Notes under the pieces: generated by a model | What the model was told of the DNA's origin: nothing | Database searches by the model: none | The model's input: only the letters and a program-made list of their open reading frames with translations | Part shown: piece by piece, positions 13,616 through 28,612 of the stretch | How positions within the stretch are numbered: position 1 is the first letter of the stretch | Layout: each line of letters opens with the position of its first letter | Translations under genes and position numbers: made by a program | NCBI GenBank assembly: GCA_020435995.1 | Contig: JAGQYO010000022.1 | Span: 1 to 50,708 of the forward strand | Reading direction: 5' to 3' | DNA: 50,708 bases | Source of the DNA: Flavobacteriales bacterium | GTDB taxonomy: Bacteria; Bacteroidota; Bacteroidia; Flavobacteriales_G; Salibacteraceae

Positions 13616-13623
13616 TATTTTTG
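13616..13623 (+). promoter_or_regulatory. Bacteroidota -7 element before secreted G8-like gene
   Basis: TATTTTTG matches TAnnTTTG and ends 18 bases before the ATG at 13642, predicting a very short leader. No -33 element stands out. Confidence 0.4.
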
Positions 13624-13641
13624 CTAAAATCTTCATCTTCA

Positions 13642-14607
13642 ATGCAACACCTTATTTTTACTTTATTCTTGGGTATTTCTTGTTTGGGTATGTCCGCCAC
13701 CAAAACAGCTAATAGCGGTAATTGGAATACGGCTGGAACTTGGTCTCCGTCAGGGATCCCACAAGATGGCGATGAGATTATTATCAATGGTAATGTGAGC
13801 ATTGCTCAAAATGATATAATTAACCTGACCAATGTGAGAATTACCATAAACGGAAGTTTGCTGGTAAACAAAAAAGGCGAACTGAATCTTGATGCGAATT
13901 CTACATTGATAGTGAGTTCCTCAACGGGAGTATCTTTTACCCACGGTAATTCCTATGTTAGGCTGGCACCATCGGTTACATTTCACGGTTCGGGAGATAA
14001 TTTTGTTGGACCTCAATCATGCAACCACCAAGGCTGTACTAATTCTGTAACCCCTTTACCAGTGGAGCTTGTTTCATTTATTGCACAGATGATGGAAGAC
14101 CGAGCCCATTTGGAATGGAAAACGGCTTCTGAAATCAACAACGATTACTTTGTGATAGAGCGGCTTGATGATAACAATTTTTGGTTAGCCATAGGTGAGG
14201 TTCACGGAAACGGTACCACCAATGAGATGCACTTTTATACCTATGATGACTATGAAGTTGACCCATATTCCGATGCCTATTACAGGCTCAAGCAAGTTGA
14301 TTTTGATGGTAACTTTGAGACTTTCGATATAAAAAAATCCGAAGCGTTAAAAACCCAAGGTCATGCTTATCGGGTTATTCGAACATTAAATAGGATTGAA
14401 ATTCAGTTTGAGGACGACCACATCGAAAGCACCGAAATCTCGCTAATCGATGCCAATGGTATGGTACTCAAAAAAGAAGTATTCGGCCAAGCTTTTAAGG
14501 GGCAAAAAGTATCATTCGATTTAGTTGAATATCCCGCCGGTTGGTATGTAGTGGGCATATCTGGAAAAGATAACATGCACTTTGAGAAAATGATTAGGGT
14601 AAAATAA
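13642..14607 (+). CDS. Secreted protein, G8-like N-terminus and T9SS tail
   Basis: A 321-residue exported protein. A signal peptide ends near GMSATKT. The next 40 residues, NWNTAGTWSPSGIPQDGDE then IIINGNV, resemble the start of G8-type beta-helix domains seen in Bacteroidota surface proteins, followed by a few short beta rungs (ITINGSLLVNKKGELNLD). After PLPVELVSF comes a region of about 100 residues (WKTASEINNDYFVIERLDD, YYRLKQVDFDGNFE) that in this phylum usually precedes a C-terminal sorting domain. The end (ISLIDANGMVLKKEV, PAGWYVVGISG, FEKMIRVK) fits a type A T9SS domain that is cleaved on secretion. Start is the ATG at 13642; the frame extends to TTG 13621, inside the -7 element. Its convergent neighbour shares the plan. 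Confidence 0.75.
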   Translation: MQHLIFTLFLGISCLGMSATKTANSGNWNTAGTWSPSGIPQDGDEIIINGNVSIAQNDIINLTNVRITINGSLLVNKKGELNLDANSTLIVSSSTGVSFTHGNSYVRLAPSVTFHGSGDNFVGPQSCNHQGCTNSVTPLPVELVSFIAQMMEDRAHLEWKTASEINNDYFVIERLDDNNFWLAIGEVHGNGTTNEMHFYTYDDYEVDPYSDAYYRLKQVDFDGNFETFDIKKSEALKTQGHAYRVIRTLNRIEIQFEDDHIESTEISLIDANGMVLKKEVFGQAFKGQKVSFDLVEYPAGWYVVGISGKDNMHFEKMIRVK

Positions 14608-16282: not shown

Positions 16283-16999
16283 ATGCGAAATCTCCTTTTA
16301 CTGTCAAATTCCTCAATTCCAAATGAACCCTATTTCAATTGGGGGAAACCATTTGTAAAACAATTTTTAGGGTCGAACAGACTAAAGGTTCTTTTTGTGC
16401 CGTACGCTGGGGTTTCGATGAGTTGGGATGAGTACACAAAGACAATATCGATGGTATATAATGAACTGGGCCATGACGTAGTGGGAATCCACGAATTTGA
16501 TGATCCCAAAAAAGCGGTGAGAGATTGTGCCGCGTTGGCTGTGGGTGGTGGAAATACTTTTCGGTTATTTGAAAAACTTCATGAGTTTGACCTTATAGAT
16601 ACAATTAATCATAGAATTAATGAGGGTATGCCTTACATGGGATGGAGTGCAGGCACCAACACGGCTTGCCCTTATTTGTTCACAACCAACGATATGCCGA
16701 TTGTGCAACCCAAAAGTTTTAAAGGGCTTGGGCAACTTCCATTTCAAGTGAATGTGCATTATACCAATGCTTCAATTGCAGGACACGGCGGAGAAACACG
16801 CGATATCAGATTGGCTGAGTTTCAGGTTCTACACCCAAAAACTAACTTAGTGGGCCTTAGGGAATGCTCGTTGATTGAAGTATCTGGCGACAAATATTTT
16901 TTGAAGGGGAGAGGCAACACCATGAAAGTTTTTAAGGCTGATGGGAATCACTTGGAAATTCATGAAGGTGAGTTTAATCCCTCTAGTTGGGGGTTTTAG
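16283..16999 (+). CDS. pepE: Dipeptidase E (alpha-aspartyl dipeptidase)
   Basis: Cytoplasmic serine peptidase of family S51 that hydrolyses dipeptides with N-terminal Asp. The 238-residue length is normal. Key residues are Ser122 in MGWSAGT, Asp137 in TTNDMP and His159 in VNVHY. Each is two residues beyond the Salmonella PepE triad Ser120/Asp135/His157, so the spacing is conserved exactly. AVGGGNTFRL and FVPYAG are also typical. The stop overlaps the convergent TPR gene by 17 bases. With the DPP-IV and POT genes elsewhere in the window it suits growth on peptides, though they are not in one operon. Confidence 0.95.
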   Translation: MRNLLLLSNSSIPNEPYFNWGKPFVKQFLGSNRLKVLFVPYAGVSMSWDEYTKTISMVYNELGHDVVGIHEFDDPKKAVRDCAALAVGGGNTFRLFEKLHEFDLIDTINHRINEGMPYMGWSAGTNTACPYLFTTNDMPIVQPKSFKGLGQLPFQVNVHYTNASIAGHGGETRDIRLAEFQVLHPKTNLVGLRECSLIEVSGDKYFLKGRGNTMKVFKADGNHLEIHEGEFNPSSWGF

Positions 17000-19900
17000 T
17001 AGGATCACGTGTTTCTAAGTCCCATATAAAAGTAGAAACAGGAACTCCGTTTTTAAAGTAGTACAAACCACCCCAATCGTGGTGAACTCGGTTAAACTCC
17101 GTTCCCACTTTGTCTTTCACAACAAATCGGGTAGTAATGGTTTTTCGGTTTTCTTTTCTAGATTCTTCGGTCACACCTGGTGGATATTTTTTACCCAATT
17201 CATTTTGAAATTTCCGAACATCGGCTCTCTCTTTTTGGTTTTCGTCTAGCAATTCGGTCTTAAATCCCTGTGGCTTGGGTCTAGGTTTGTTATGTGTTCT
17301 AGCCAAAATCATTTGATTCATTCGGTTTTTCATTTCAATTGCCTCATGAATGGCCTGTTTTAAACTGTAGGATACGGGATCAATTAAGAGTCCTTCTTGG
17401 TATTTACTAATAGCTTTGTCATACTGTCCGCCAGCATAAAGGTCGTCTCCAGCATCTAAAAATTGTCTGATCTTGGCTTCTTGTTCTGCTTTTAGTCTTG
17501 CGGCTTCCTCCATTTTAGCCTGCTCTGCTCGAGCGGCTTCCAATTTCCCTTCAATTTCTTTGAGCCCTTGAATTGCCGCAGCGTTGGTAGATTCTAATGC
17601 TAACACCTCTTTATATTTTTCTTCAGCCGCCAAATAGTTTTTTCGAATCACTGAAGTATGAGCTTCTCTAAGGTGCGTATTGATTAACTCTTCTTTTTCC
17701 AACGCATTCAAGGCTTCAAGTCGCTCTGCCTCTTGAATTTTGAGTTGTTTGGCTTTCACTATTCGAGCCGAGGCTTCGCTGTTTTCAGGGTCAACATCTA
17801 TTATTTTTCCATAGGTTTCCATAGCTTCATCGTACTTTTTGGACGCCACCAATTGATCGCCAATACTCATGTAGCTTCTAATTTGAATGTTCTTTTCTTT
17901 TTCAAGTTTGGCACTAGCTTCTGCTTCGGCTCTCTCCTTGTTGGCCTTGGCATCGGCTTCTTGCTGTTTCTTTTGCAGCTCCGACTTTTCTTTTAGGGTA
18001 GCTACTTTAGATGTAGCTATTTCATATCCAGGGCTAATGGCGAGCACTTCCCCTAATTTGGCAATGGCTCTGTTATAGTTTTTGGCATCAGCGGCGAGGT
18101 CTGCCTCGGCCATAAGTGCTTCAATTTTGGCGGCCTTATCTGCCTCACTTTGAGCTGCGGCTTGTTCGGCCAATTTCTGTTTTTCTGCTTCTTCTGCTGC
18201 CAATCTTTCTTTTTCTGCGGCTGCCAATTGCTCCGAGGCTAGCTTATATTTTGATTGTGCTATTTCATTGGATTGATCTAGGTCGATGGCCGATTTATAA
18301 TTGGCTTGAGCCTCAGCGAGGCTTTTCTTTTTTAAGGCCTTATCTCCTAGTGAAATAAATTCCGCTACCTTGGCATCTATTTCAGCTTTTGATTTCGCCA
18401 ATTCTTCCGCTTCCTGCTTAGCTTTTGCATCGGCCAATGCTTTGGCACTTAATTTATCGAGTTCAATTATTTCTGATTTGGCTTGCTCGTGGTTGGGGTC
18501 GAGTGCCAATATTTCTCGGAATTTACCTTTTGCCGCATCGTAATTCGCTGCCGTTTTAAGTACAAAAGCTTCCTTTTGGAGGTTTTCTATCTTCAACAGA
18601 CGCTCTTCCATGAGCTTTTCAGCAGCTGCAATTTCATCCAATTTTTTAAGTCCGGCCTCATTGTTTGGAATCAATTTAAGTGATTCATTGGCTTTTTCTC
18701 GGGCATTTACAAATTGACTGGATTTCAATAAATTATCAGATTCTTCAAGTAGAGCGGCAACCTTGTTCAGTTTTTCTTTTTGCTCTGCATCAGCAGCGGC
18801 AAGTTTTTCTTGTTCAGCTTTTTTTCTTGCTTCTTCAGCTGCTAGTTGCTCAGCTTCGATGGCTACAATAGCGGCTAAACCCTCTGCCGCAGCCGCGTAG
18901 TTTTCATCAAGTGCCAAAATTTCGGTGTAAGTTGCTTTTGCCTCGGTTAACTTTCCGCTTGTTTTTTGTTTGTCAGCGCTAACCATAAGCTTGTCAATTT
19001 TAGCTTGTTTTTCGGCCATCTCTTTTTCTTCAAGTGCTTTTTGCTTGGCTTGTTCTTCGGCATTAGCGAGCGAAATTTTTTCGGCCGCATCAATTTCCTC
19101 TAGTTTGGATTTTGCCCCGGCATGTTTTGGAACCACTAGCAGAGCTTCATTGGCCTTTTTGCGAGCGCCTTCAAAATCTTTGGTATCTTTTAGCTCAGTT
19201 GCTTCGGCTAGCAAATTGTTCACTTGATCCTCTTTTGCTTTAAGAGCGGCTGCCGCAGCTGCTGCGGCTTCTAGCTCGGCTGCTTTCTGCGCATTGAGCG
19301 CCGCGTTCTTTTTTTCTTCCTCGACCCTCGCTATTTCCGCAGTTTCCAAAGTTTCTATCTCCTTCAGTTTTGCAGTGGCATTGGCATGTGTGGCCATTAT
19401 GGCCAATGAAGCGCTTACTTTAGCCTTTGCGCCAGCGAAGTCTTTACTAGCCGCCAAGGCATCTGCTTCCGTAAGTAATACTGCAACTTGAGCTTCTTTA
19501 TCTGCTTTTTCTTTGGCTTCTGCTTCTAATTTTTCTTTTTCTACTTTCTCTTTTTTCGCGTTGGCATCAAGCTTTTGTAATTCTGACAATTCCTTTTGAG
19601 CCGTTTTTTCGTCTGGGAAAAGGAGCAGAGCAGATTCCACTTCTTTTATTGCTCCTTCAAAATCGTTTGCTGCCTTTAAGGTGGCCGCTTTCGCCATAGC
19701 TTCGTCAAAAACTTGTTCTTGTTCTTTTAACGCCATTTCTGCTTGTTCTTTTTCTGCCTTTTGCTTGGCAAGCGATTCTGCTTTGGCAATTTTAGCATCT
19801 GCTGTTGCGCTGCCAGCTGGATAAGCACTTTTGGCATCGAGGTAAGCTTGTTTGGCTCCTTCAAAATCTTCAGAAGCAAGCAAGGCATCGCCGCTTTTTA

Positions 19901-21755
19901 TCAATTCTTGAAATTGTGCTTCTGCCTCTGCTTGAAATTTTGTTGCTTTTTGTTTTTGTGCTTGGTCAATGAGGTTTTTAGCCCGGACGTCTGTTGGTAA
20001 CAGTTGCTGCGCTTCATTAAAAACGGCAATAGCTTCATCAAATTTTTCTTCTTTTAACAGGGCTTCACCTTGTTTCAATTTTTCAGCAAACTGCTCATTC
20101 AGCAAACTTTTTTCTTTTTCAGCTTTTAAGCGAGTGGCTTCTGCTTTGAGTTCAACGGTTTTGGTTTCTGATGGAAGTATGCTGTGCGCTTCATCGAGTT
20201 TTGCTATCCCGCCATCAAAATCCTCTTTTTTAATTAATTCTTCTGCTTCTGTCAGCACAGCATCGAATTGAGCTTTGACCCGTGCAGCATCTTCTTGGGT
20301 GATGAGTTTATTGGTTTGCTCTATAAGTTCTTTGTGCCGTGGATTTTGCGGAATTATTTTGCCGGCTTCTTCAAATTTTGCGATGGCCTCGGGGTAACTT
20401 TTATTTTTAAGTGAGGCTTCGCCAGCTAAAATCAAATCATCGTATTCCTTTTGAACAGCAGCTTGAGCGTCATCTTTTTTACTTTTTTCAGCTAAGGTGA
20501 TCATGGTTTTTGGATGTTGTTCGAGCGGGAGGACAGCCTCGGCCTCTTTATATTTTGCGATGGCTGCATCGTAGTCTTTATTTTTTAGGAGCTCATCCGC
20601 TTCCCTTACGAGGGCGTCATATTGCGCGCGAATTTCTGCCTTTTGAGCCGCAACTTTTAATTCATCGCACTCTTTGATTTTTGTTTTTGGATATATTTCC
20701 TGACTGATCAGAGCGCTAGCTTCTGTATATTTTGCTTTGGCCTCATCAAAACTGCTGGATTTGAGCAAGGCATCTGCTTCTTTGATAATTTCATCGTATT
20801 TGGCCTTGGTGTCAGCCGCCAATTGGTTTGCTTTCAGCTTATTGGCTTCTGCAATTTTTGTTTTGGGGGTGGGGTCATTTGGCTTTATTTTTTGGGCAGC
20901 TTCATAGGCCAAAATTGCATTGTCATAATCCTTCGATTTAATCAATTCGGATGCTTTGTTCATTTCATCGGCAAAGGCAGCTTCTGTTTTTGCTTGTTCT
21001 TCTGCCTTTAGGGCCTGTTCACCTAAGCGGGTTGCATTGTCAATTCGTGCTTTTGGTTCTACTTCACCAGGTTTTGCCTCTTGGGCCTTCTTGTAAAAAT
21101 CAATGGCCCCCGAATAGTTCTTCGATTTCATGAGCTCGTCACCCGATTTCATGGCATCATCATACTTCGCTTGTAGTTCTGCCGCTTCTGCCTTTTTTTT
21201 CAGTTCTTCTTCATAGGCTATTTTTTCCTTCTTGGCCAGCGCAATTTGGTCGGTGGCATAGGCATCTCCTTCCTTGACTTTTGCTGCATTTTCGTATCCA
21301 GCTATCGCCTCATCGTAGCGCTTGCCCGTGAAGTAGACATCTGCTTTGGCAATTATTTCCTTGTATTCAGCTTCTATGGCTGCGGCTTTTTCTTCAGCTT
21401 CTGCCTTTTCTTTTAATTCTTTAACCTTGGCAATTTGCTCTTCGGGATAGGTTTCTAACGGGCCCCATTTTTTGGCCTCTTCGTAGGATTCGATGGCATC
21501 TGCATATTTACGTGCTCTTACAAGTGCATCGCCTTTGGCCTTTGCGGCGGCGTAGTTGGCTTTGAATTTTTCTTCGTTTTTGGCGGCTTTTTCGGCGTTT
21601 TTCTTCTTCTCTTCCTCGGCTCTAAGCTCGGCCTCAATAGCATCCAAAATATCATCTTGTGAATAGGCATTAGACGTAGCTAATAAACCAATTACAAGCA
21701 GAAACGCACACAATATCCTTCTTCCCAAACTTTTGCCTGTTAATCGCTTACTCAA
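16983..21755 (-). CDS. Giant TPR-like repeat protein, secreted, 21 units
   Basis: A 1590-residue exported protein. The N-terminus is a basic stretch plus hydrophobic core ending SNAYSQ (about 1-33). Residues 70-1475 carry 21 TPR-like helical pairs of about 40 residues, each typified by (G/A)DxLxxxxxYxxAIxxYxxAxxxxP, joined by Ala/Glu/Lys-rich helices likely to be coiled coils, with a mean period of about 68 residues. Residues 1500-1590 are a distinct C-terminal domain (TRFVVKDKVGTEFNRVHH, WGGLYYFKNGVPVS). The product should be a very long helical rod or solenoid in the periplasm or at the outer membrane. No T9SS tail or lipobox is seen. The start appears to be TTG at 21755; no ATG is in frame ahead of the signal. 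Function unknown; a scaffold for an envelope machine is a guess. Confidence 0.8.
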   Translation of the reverse strand: MSKRLTGKSLGRRILCAFLLVIGLLATSNAYSQDDILDAIEAELRAEEEKKKNAEKAAKNEEKFKANYAAAKAKGDALVRARKYADAIESYEEAKKWGPLETYPEEQIAKVKELKEKAEAEEKAAAIEAEYKEIIAKADVYFTGKRYDEAIAGYENAAKVKEGDAYATDQIALAKKEKIAYEEELKKKAEAAELQAKYDDAMKSGDELMKSKNYSGAIDFYKKAQEAKPGEVEPKARIDNATRLGEQALKAEEQAKTEAAFADEMNKASELIKSKDYDNAILAYEAAQKIKPNDPTPKTKIAEANKLKANQLAADTKAKYDEIIKEADALLKSSSFDEAKAKYTEASALISQEIYPKTKIKECDELKVAAQKAEIRAQYDALVREADELLKNKDYDAAIAKYKEAEAVLPLEQHPKTMITLAEKSKKDDAQAAVQKEYDDLILAGEASLKNKSYPEAIAKFEEAGKIIPQNPRHKELIEQTNKLITQEDAARVKAQFDAVLTEAEELIKKEDFDGGIAKLDEAHSILPSETKTVELKAEATRLKAEKEKSLLNEQFAEKLKQGEALLKEEKFDEAIAVFNEAQQLLPTDVRAKNLIDQAQKQKATKFQAEAEAQFQELIKSGDALLASEDFEGAKQAYLDAKSAYPAGSATADAKIAKAESLAKQKAEKEQAEMALKEQEQVFDEAMAKAATLKAANDFEGAIKEVESALLLFPDEKTAQKELSELQKLDANAKKEKVEKEKLEAEAKEKADKEAQVAVLLTEADALAASKDFAGAKAKVSASLAIMATHANATAKLKEIETLETAEIARVEEEKKNAALNAQKAAELEAAAAAAAALKAKEDQVNNLLAEATELKDTKDFEGARKKANEALLVVPKHAGAKSKLEEIDAAEKISLANAEEQAKQKALEEKEMAEKQAKIDKLMVSADKQKTSGKLTEAKATYTEILALDENYAAAAEGLAAIVAIEAEQLAAEEARKKAEQEKLAAADAEQKEKLNKVAALLEESDNLLKSSQFVNAREKANESLKLIPNNEAGLKKLDEIAAAEKLMEERLLKIENLQKEAFVLKTAANYDAAKGKFREILALDPNHEQAKSEIIELDKLSAKALADAKAKQEAEELAKSKAEIDAKVAEFISLGDKALKKKSLAEAQANYKSAIDLDQSNEIAQSKYKLASEQLAAAEKERLAAEEAEKQKLAEQAAAQSEADKAAKIEALMAEADLAADAKNYNRAIAKLGEVLAISPGYEIATSKVATLKEKSELQKKQQEADAKANKERAEAEASAKLEKEKNIQIRSYMSIGDQLVASKKYDEAMETYGKIIDVDPENSEASARIVKAKQLKIQEAERLEALNALEKEELINTHLREAHTSVIRKNYLAAEEKYKEVLALESTNAAAIQGLKEIEGKLEAARAEQAKMEEAARLKAEQEAKIRQFLDAGDDLYAGGQYDKAISKYQEGLLIDPVSYSLKQAIHEAIEMKNRMNQMILARTHNKPRPKPQGFKTELLDENQKERADVRKFQNELGKKYPPGVTEESRKENRKTITTRFVVKDKVGTEFNRVHHDWGGLYYFKNGVPVSTFIWDLETRDPTKTPN
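17331..21548 (-). repeat. Coding repeat: 21 TPR-like units of about 68 codons
   Basis: The section encoding the 21 TPR-like units of the 1590-residue protein. First unit GDALVRARKYADAIESYEEA, last GDDLYAGGQYDKAISKYQEG. Only the helix pattern is conserved between units, not nucleotide sequence, so duplication is old and not an active slippage repeat. Confidence 0.75.
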
Positions 21756-26623: not shown

Positions 26624-28612
26624 TTATTTTACGTCAATGATCTTAAATTCCGTTCTGCGGTTTTGTTGGCGACCTTCTTCGGTGTCGTTTGTAGCAATGG
26701 GTGAGGCTTTGCCCATACCTGTAGTGCGGAGTTGTTTTTTGTTTACTCCAATAGAAATGAGGTAGTCCGCCACAGATTCGGCTCTTTGCTGAGACATTTT
26801 TTTGTTGATTTCGTCTGAGCCCACATTGTCCGTATGCCCTATAATTTCAACCTTTATTTTTGGGAATCGGTCCATCAATTCTTTTATATTATTCAATTCA
26901 ATTTTTGATTCTTCACGTAAGGTATAGGCATTGAAATCGAAGAAGATATTGTTAAGTGTTACACTGGCACCCTTTTGCACTTTCGATAACTCTACATCTT
27001 CCTTAATCATCCCGAAGTCTTTTTTATCTTTTAAGTTAATCTGTTCAGAGTAAAAGAGATGATTTTTTTCGCTGTCTTTCACCGTTACCGAATAGTTTTT
27101 TCCAGCTGGAAGTACAACAAGGTATTTACCTGTAACACTGTTTGCTTTTCCAACATAAACCATCTCTCCAGTCTCCATTATCTTTACTTCTATATCGGCA
27201 CCCAGTGGGATTCCTGTAGTTGGATCAACAACTTTTCCCTTGAGGAGGGTAACGTGGGCTGGGTCTGGATTGAGAAACGTAATTTCATAAATGTCTTTTT
27301 CTCCTTTGCCATTTGGGCGATACGAGGAGTAGAGTGCTTTTCGGTTACTGGCCGCAACTACAAAAAACAGGTCGTCGCCAGGGGTATTTATCGGAAAACC
27401 AATGTTTACTGGCTTAGTCCAACTTCCGTCTTCTTGCAGCGTGGTATAGAAAATATCAAAGCCCCCCATAGTAGAGTGTCCTTTGCTGGAGAAGTAGAGG
27501 GTTTTACCATCCGGGTGCATAAAAACACTTTCTTCGTCATATTCTGAGTTGACTATTGGACCTAGATTTTTTGCAGGCCCCCACTCTTCGTATTTTTCGA
27601 GCCATTGACTCACGTAAATATCTCGTCCACCTTGGTTTTCATCTGGTCGGTTAGATACAAAATAGAGATGTTTTCCCTCGTAGGAATAGCATGCGGACGA
27701 CTCATGGTACTGAGTATTTACATTTAAATTGAGTTTTTTTGGCTTGCTCCAAGAGCTCCCATTTAAGGTGCTTTCCAGAATATCACCATTGCCATAGTGG
27801 TTTTGAAAGTAGAGGAGCTTTTGCCCATCTGCCGAAAGACCTACCGCCGATTCGTGCTCTGATGTATTTACAGGAGGCCCTATATTTATTGGCATGCTCC
27901 AATTTCCTTCATCGTCTTTTTCGGTGAAATAGATATCCTCATAAAAATCATTGAGTATCAAATCCATTTTTCCGCCAGTGGTATTTTCTCTACGTGAGGT
28001 GAAAAATAGTTCTGTTTCATCGGCATTGATGATGGGTCCATATTCTGGATCGGGACCATTTATCGTGTTTCCAATATTTTCAACAATTACCCTTATCGGT
28101 TTTTTTACTAATTCTCTACCTGATATACATTCTTCTATAAACTTGTTAAGTGAATTCATTAGCTCTACATCATTGGCCTGTTCCACAAAGGGACGGTATG
28201 ATTTGTATTCTTCTATGGCTTCGTCAAACCGAGCAGAAAAATGAAAGGCACGTGCTAAATCGAAGTTAATCTCCTTGTCAATATTAGGTTCAAGTTCTTT
28301 TGCTTTAAGCAAAAAAGGCAGTGCCTTGGTCTTGAATGCTGAACTATATAAGTAGCAGTGGCCAATGCGGAAATTCAAGAAAGCATTATCGGGGTTTAAT
28401 TTGTAAGCATCTAAATAATAATGTAAGGCAGATTTTAAATAACTATGCCCGCGCTCGTACCAATGGTTTCCCTCTTGAATATTTTGCAGCGCAATTTCAA
28501 GCTCGGCTGGACGATCGGGAAAATTCTCCGAATTGAATTCAATGTTTTTTTGACCAAACAACAATGCTGGACAAAAGATTAAAATGGCAACTAGTATCTG
28601 ACGGTAATTCAC
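26624..28612 (-). CDS. PorE-like TPR/beta-propeller/OmpA protein
   Basis: A 662-residue exported protein. Signal peptide ends PALLFGQ. Residues about 40-160 hold TPR helices (ALHYYLDAYKLNPDNAFLN). About 180-440 is a WD40-like PD40 beta-propeller with blades such as ELFFTSRREN, KLLYFQNHYGNGDI, HLYFVSNRPDENQGGRDIY and TLYFSSKGHSTMGGFDIFY. About 455-530 is a carboxypeptidase-regulatory-like domain (LKGKVVDPTTGIPLGADIEV). About 545-662 is a peptidoglycan-binding OmpA domain (EIIGHTDNVGSDEINKKMSQ, QQNRRTEFKI). This is the order described for PorE of the type IX secretion system in Porphyromonas gingivalis, though several paralogues per genome are normal. Start codon GTG at 28612. First gene of a unit with the small membrane protein and mltF. 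Confidence 0.88.
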   Translation of the reverse strand: MNYRQILVAILIFCPALLFGQKNIEFNSENFPDRPAELEIALQNIQEGNHWYERGHSYLKSALHYYLDAYKLNPDNAFLNFRIGHCYLYSSAFKTKALPFLLKAKELEPNIDKEINFDLARAFHFSARFDEAIEEYKSYRPFVEQANDVELMNSLNKFIEECISGRELVKKPIRVIVENIGNTINGPDPEYGPIINADETELFFTSRRENTTGGKMDLILNDFYEDIYFTEKDDEGNWSMPINIGPPVNTSEHESAVGLSADGQKLLYFQNHYGNGDILESTLNGSSWSKPKKLNLNVNTQYHESSACYSYEGKHLYFVSNRPDENQGGRDIYVSQWLEKYEEWGPAKNLGPIVNSEYDEESVFMHPDGKTLYFSSKGHSTMGGFDIFYTTLQEDGSWTKPVNIGFPINTPGDDLFFVVAASNRKALYSSYRPNGKGEKDIYEITFLNPDPAHVTLLKGKVVDPTTGIPLGADIEVKIMETGEMVYVGKANSVTGKYLVVLPAGKNYSVTVKDSEKNHLFYSEQINLKDKKDFGMIKEDVELSKVQKGASVTLNNIFFDFNAYTLREESKIELNNIKELMDRFPKIKVEIIGHTDNVGSDEINKKMSQQRAESVADYLISIGVNKKQLRTTGMGKASPIATNDTEEGRQQNRRTEFKIIDVK

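Follow-up and report, generated by a model that had tools for sequence, protein, structure and literature searches.

A 21-unit TPR rod with a conserved, unnamed C-terminal domain: a candidate spacer of the Bacteroidia cell envelope

The window (the whole stretch of DNA analysed here, 50,708 nucleotides, which is the entire contig C122 of a 3.76 Mb Bacteroidota genome) contains a gene for a very long protein that consists mostly of helical repeats and ends in a small, separate domain. What does such a protein do, and in which part of the cell does it act? A first reading of the letters and open reading frames, which we call the sequence-only reading, had described an exported rod and had offered a spacer, a cable and a scaffold as possible roles. 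Among these options "spacer" is the best supported. We judge it reasonably likely that the window protein is an exported, soluble rod that serves as a tether or spacer, most likely in the periplasm, with the C-terminal domain (CTD) as its docking end.

The plus strand across the gene is full of stops, and the gene is a single long open reading frame on the minus strand (Table 1). The frame of 1590 that had been noticed earlier is present, with the qualification that it lies on that strand and begins with TTG. The signal peptide that had been predicted is also seen in the sequence; it is type I-like as read from the sequence, and N termini of comparable type occur in nearly all relatives whose N terminus is intact. 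Assignment of the protein to a compartment is based on this signal peptide and on the absence of other anchors.

Table 1. Positions of the rod gene, its parts and a PorE-like neighbour in the window
Feature	Residues	Window positions	Strand	Remarks
TPR-rod gene		16983..21755	(-), i.e. 21755 -> 16983	1590 codons, TTG start, stop included
Signal peptide, N-terminal	1-33	21657..21755	(-)	Predicted cleavage AYS/Q (CAFLLVIGLLATSNAYS/Q), without lipobox
Conserved lead segment, N-terminal	33-62	21570..21659	(-)	Begins DDILDAIEAELR; 69-86% identity among orthologues
21 TPR units and helical linkers	65-1471	17343..21563	(-)	Profile search; step 58-88
CTD (C-terminal domain)	~1500-1590	16986..17258	(-)	AlphaFold2, family alignments; YPxGxTEE and WGGxYYFKNG motifs
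PorE-like protein (PD40 propeller and OmpA)		26624..28612	(-)	4.9 kb from rod; possible functional neighbour

An iterated profile trained on the repeats found exactly 21 units, the number given by the sequence-only reading, each with an expect value below 1e-14. A further profile match of 15 residues (E 0.27) was judged spurious and was not counted as a unit. The mean step between units is 68.05 residues, in agreement with the period of about 68 residues proposed at the outset, but the period is not constant: steps are approximately 59 residues for units 5-10, vary from 58 to 88 later in the chain, and are quantised by helical turns. In an autocorrelation analysis the lags of 118 (0.00) and 59 (-0.06) rise above the global-shuffle maxima (-0.32), as do the lags of 68 and 63. 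The Pfam model TPR_2 matches the whole protein with an expect value of 1.4e-38; the Pfam search of the window protein returned TPR repeats alone, and the NCBIfam search nothing over the cut-off. An identity as Amuc_1098, which scored 24.6 bits against an NCBIfam cut-off of 750, was rejected as coiled-coil/TPR similarity.

In an AlphaFold2 model of residues 1420-1590, built with 72 sequences, the last unit is predicted as helices of 21, 14 and 26 residues with a pLDDT of about 98, indicating that a unit is one TPR pair followed by a long third helix. The last unit matches TPR structures with DALI-scale Z scores of about 9-10, and TPR structures filled the results of a fold search with the C-terminal 171 residues. 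The TPR-type helical pairs that had been proposed thus agree both with the TPR_2 match and with the TPR helices predicted for the last unit, and the Ala/Glu/Lys linkers between units are supported as helical. Classical TPR proteins consist of 34-residue repeats that pack head to tail. The window rod shares with them a significant TPR profile match, but it has only one TPR per 57-88 residues, and a long third helix lies between units.

Step lengths were compared in 59 related rods, with 657 steps in all. The spacing of units clusters at 53, 56/57, 59/60, 63/64, 67, 71, 74/75, 78, 81, 85, 88 and 92 residues, and spacings of 58, 61, 62, 65, 72, 73, 76, 77, 82-84 and 86-87 are almost unoccupied. 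The best-fitting period is 3.55 residues (R 0.60). When weighted across 28 clusters R is 0.59, versus a null mean of 0.17 (sd 0.057, maximum 0.385, 1000 trials) obtained by jittering every distinct value by up to 3 residues inside its cluster; the clusters were frequency-weighted and were formed at 60, 70 and 85% identity. Coarser clustering (single linkage at 50%, with 53 proteins in one cluster and distinct values only) yielded uninformative R values of 0.12-0.14. The 3.55 periodicity is absent from the distance between the last unit and the CTD and from the position of the first unit (R 0.07 each). Because step lengths are one alpha-helical turn apart, successive units are expected to be joined by one continuous helix. 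On the most direct reading of these spacings, one and the same helix serves as the third of a unit and as the first of its successor, and shifts in its length are tolerated only as whole turns; such changes would keep the angle of each unit to its neighbour constant.

The whole chain may accordingly be pictured as a straight, rigid rod. If all helices were axial, we estimate a length on the order of 100 nm, from (1361 - 20 x 35) x 0.15 nm. A rod of this length exceeds the width of the periplasm and, if straight, could not stand radially within it. A compact TPR superhelix in place of the extended rod is possible; the stacked form would be several times shorter. A comparison may be made with spectrin-type rods, which the window protein would resemble in having three-helix units whose last helix continues as the first helix of the next. 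The units here differ in being TPR-derived, of about 57-88 residues, and show no sequence kinship with spectrin; the comparison extends only to how such rods work.

The CTD, which had been set apart on sequence alone as a domain with a WGGLYYFKNG core, was borne out by structure prediction. A model of the CTD together with the last unit has a pLDDT of 91.5, and of about 97 over most of the CTD, which is connected to the last TPR unit through a low-confidence linker. Predicted alone (pLDDT 85.8), the domain consists of a helix, a five-strand meander and a short helix. It represents a family without a name in Pfam or NCBIfam and without a clear fold in the PDB. Searches of the CTD against Pfam returned only noise (the best match, Tcp10_C at 0.0069, occurred in 2 of 26 CTDs), NCBIfam gave no family match, PDB sequences gave nothing below 0.08, and neither the CTD nor the whole protein had a Pfam match to the C-terminal domains of TolA or TonB. 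A fold search of the CTD scored highest with SMC heads (Z 5.4, Foldseek E 0.07, 66 residues at an rmsd of 3.0), and PUR folds scored nearly as well; a Z of 5.4 falls in the range of common arrangements and is not evidence of kinship with either. A literature search found no publication on the CTD family and no experiment on any member. The earlier remark that no named protein has such a build therefore holds for Pfam, NCBIfam, PDB sequences and the literature searched, but the protein is not a singleton, because it belongs to a large family of paralogues that extends through much of the class Bacteroidia.

Relatives of the CTD are present in all 35 genomes of the host's bacterial family, in 1-8 copies each. 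They occur in 136 of 296 genomes sampled from the class Bacteroidia and in 2 of 296 genomes of a phylum-wide sample, one of the two being the window's own genome. In every one of 102 proteins read, the CTD lies within 20 residues of the C terminus; these proteins come from previously collected loci and from 80 loci in named genomes, which belong to Flavobacteriales, Cryomorphaceae, Bacteroidales and other Bacteroidota. Cryomorpha ignava, a cultured relative, is among the species with a CTD protein. The invariance of WGG..YFK in the 80 loci is partly a matter of ascertainment, because the search used a set of more closely related CTDs.

The region preceding the CTD is variable. Two or more TPR units are found in 72 of 129 non-redundant family members, and the other spacers are a Lys/Glu/Ala-rich helix, MORN arrays (three members) or, in a few members, Pro-rich sequence. 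An N-terminal beta-sandwich domain related to CarboxypepD_reg is conserved in 84 of the 129; the window rod and its orthologues are without this domain, common though it is among their relatives. The orthologues have approximately 19-22 units, allowing for missed ones. Their identity is lowest in the TPR region (36-48%), higher in the CTD (56-59%) and highest in the lead segment (Table 1). Near-identical adjacent units occur in many rods, indicating that units have been gained through recent tandem duplication.

Constant ends, an interchangeable and weakly conserved middle, the gain and loss of units, and linkers that preserve phase together point to a spacer or tether that makes its contacts at the ends. 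The repeat structure, the quantised linkers, the family-wide C-terminal position of the CTD, the swapping of spacers and the stronger conservation of the ends are supported directly, and from them we infer the tether function and the periplasmic location. The exported, rod-like protein of the sequence-only reading is likewise supported. Its 21 TPR-derived units, each of three helices, would form a long alpha-helical rod that sets a distance; the length of the rod would be fixed by the number of units and of linker turns, and its points of contact would be the conserved N-terminal segment and the CTD. The CTD would then be the end that docks to a partner; it is probably an envelope docking module in the place that is held by the peptidoglycan-binding OmpA domain in related proteins. 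A bolder proposal, which we advance tentatively and consider rather doubtful, is that the CTD is a new envelope-addressing "plug" of the Bacteroidia that docks any spacer to one common receptor in the envelope, and that the paralogous rods within a cell serve as rulers whose differing lengths are adjusted through the number of units and in steps of whole turns.

Two known systems are instructive for the tether reading. In the periplasmic force transducers TolA and TonB, domain II is a spacer, helical or proline-rich and variable in length, and the end domain is kept (PMC12204202). The window protein is similar in carrying a small C-terminal globular domain on a length-variable spacer. It differs in that it has no evident N-terminal transmembrane anchor, its signal peptide looking cleavable, and in that its spacer is made mostly of TPR units and no TolA/TonB family match was obtained. 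PorE (PG1058) binds peptidoglycan via its OmpA domain (PMC7192894). The likeness to PorE and PorE-like proteins is that of exported, modular Bacteroidota envelope proteins with TPR and carboxypeptidase-regulatory-like domains (the latter in the CTD family) and a C-terminal docking domain; the differences are that the window protein lacks a lipobox, a propeller and an OmpA domain, that the unnamed CTD stands at its end, and that its TPR part is far longer. OmpA domains and beta-propellers (PD40/WD40) were absent both from the window protein and from the 24 families matched by 53 members. PorE thus sets a precedent within the Bacteroidota: a periplasmic protein of modular build whose C-terminal domain binds the wall. 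The window rod may work like TolA/TonB and PorE, but it belongs to neither family. At locus L054 a 782-aa protein (346-2694) combines the N-terminal domain of the CTD family (1.9e-33), beta-sandwich beads and a C-terminal OmpA domain (1e-19), and its gene is divergent from that of a 1070-aa CTD rod. In this single clear case, the CTD and the peptidoglycan-binding OmpA domain appear to be alternative ends.

The CTD might instead be a C-terminal sorting signal, of a class additional to A, B and C, and direct the rods through the type IX secretion system (T9SS) to the cell surface, where they would be fibres or adhesins. Its strictly C-terminal position in 102 of 102 proteins and the several cargo-like paralogues per genome agree with this explanation, as do the at least 150 type A tails in the window's own genome (G000), and the conserved domain of about 80-90 residues is comparable in size, position and number of paralogues to that of T9SS type A cargo (TIGR04183). 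SprA is found in 135 of the 136 CTD-bearing genomes of the class sample, but it is nearly universal in that sample (288 of 296), so that the co-occurrence carries no weight either way; SprA is moreover far commoner than the CTD (227 versus 2 of 296 genomes phylum-wide, and 288 versus 136 of 296 in the class). Among the listed NCBIfam matches of 77 CTDs at E <= 10 there was no sorting-domain model, whether of type A, B or C, and hhalign of the CTD versus type A tails of the same genome gave a probability of 0.14% (the tail set included two wrongly chosen ORFs). These results rule out the CTD as a type A sorting domain (TIGR04183), to which it has neither sequence nor profile similarity, and its predicted fold of helix, meander and helix is unlike type A. 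We regard sorting to the surface as an unlikely role for the CTD.

Alternatively, the TPR units could be binding sites for peptides or proteins, which would make the molecule a periplasmic scaffold or chaperone for many clients, held to the envelope by the CTD. TPRs are usually protein-binding modules, and 21 units would provide many potential sites. In relatives, however, Lys/Glu/Ala helices or MORN arrays replace the whole TPR region under the same CTD, and no part of the protein is less conserved than the TPR region. This pattern fits a spacer better than specific binding; a client-binding role seems to us improbable. There is a still smaller chance of a periplasmic cable or rail, built from rods that join at their ends or along their sides. 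A filament under the outer membrane has been seen in gliding Bacteroidota, and its make-up is incompletely known (PMC9870892); the existence of filaments of this type, together with the great length of the rod and the uniform phase of its units, would be in keeping with such a cable. Many sampled families of the class and of the phylum nonetheless have SprA and no CTD, and CTD rods therefore cannot be a universal part of gliding. Nor do any gliding genes adjoin the rod at the window locus.

The window protein brings to light a widespread, unannotated family of exported rods. It would be possible to name the CTD, to solve its structure and to use it in finding its envelope partner, and if the receptor of the CTD is a fixed one, a location would follow for many hypothetical proteins of the Bacteroidia. 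The quantised linkers are a case in which TPR units strung on continuous helices are revealed by sequence alone, and this design is of interest both for protein rods and for the setting of distances in the bacterial envelope.

The genes near the rod in the window encode PepE, HtpG, T9SS cargo, a band 7 protein and an MltF-like transglycosylase. The PepE gene is convergent with the rod gene and overlaps it by 17 bases, and the presence of PepE and HtpG beside the rod is lineage synteny. The neighbours at this locus show no secretion or motility machine, and no tol-pal or exbBD genes were seen adjoining the rod. At L105, L113 and L124, PorE-like or OmpA genes directly flank the rod, and at L128 the rod is in a similar cluster; the frequency of PorE-like genes near CTD genes is not clearly over background, given 12 OmpA matches above the cut-off in the window's own genome. 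A second PorE-like PD40-OmpA protein is encoded on the contig at 48650-50611 (+), and it and the one at 26624-28612 take the top two places among the genome's OmpA matches. Elsewhere in the window, the product of 13621-14607 (+) matches a G8 domain and a T9SS tail, both weakly.

Other loci of the family have features of their own. On the 5' side of CTD genes, and divergent from them, a conserved set of two or three small exported proteins is encoded at L095, L098, L101, L102, L109, L115, L116, L125, L126, L127, L129, L133, L134 and L055. One of these proteins has about 155 aa, another contains TPRs and has about 170 aa, and another contains cysteines and has about 138 aa; Pfam searches with the ~155-aa and ~138-aa proteins gave no credible family. 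The CTD proteins of L112, L114 and L119 begin with a long N-terminal MORN array, which is followed by a Lys/Glu/Ala helix. Tandem pairs of CTD genes, encoding proteins of about 410 and 600 aa, occur at L038 (8288-12024), L042, L046, L050 and L051. In four of these five loci a gene that encodes nothing but the N-terminal domain lies ahead of the pair, and in some of the loci conserved exported genes are found further upstream.
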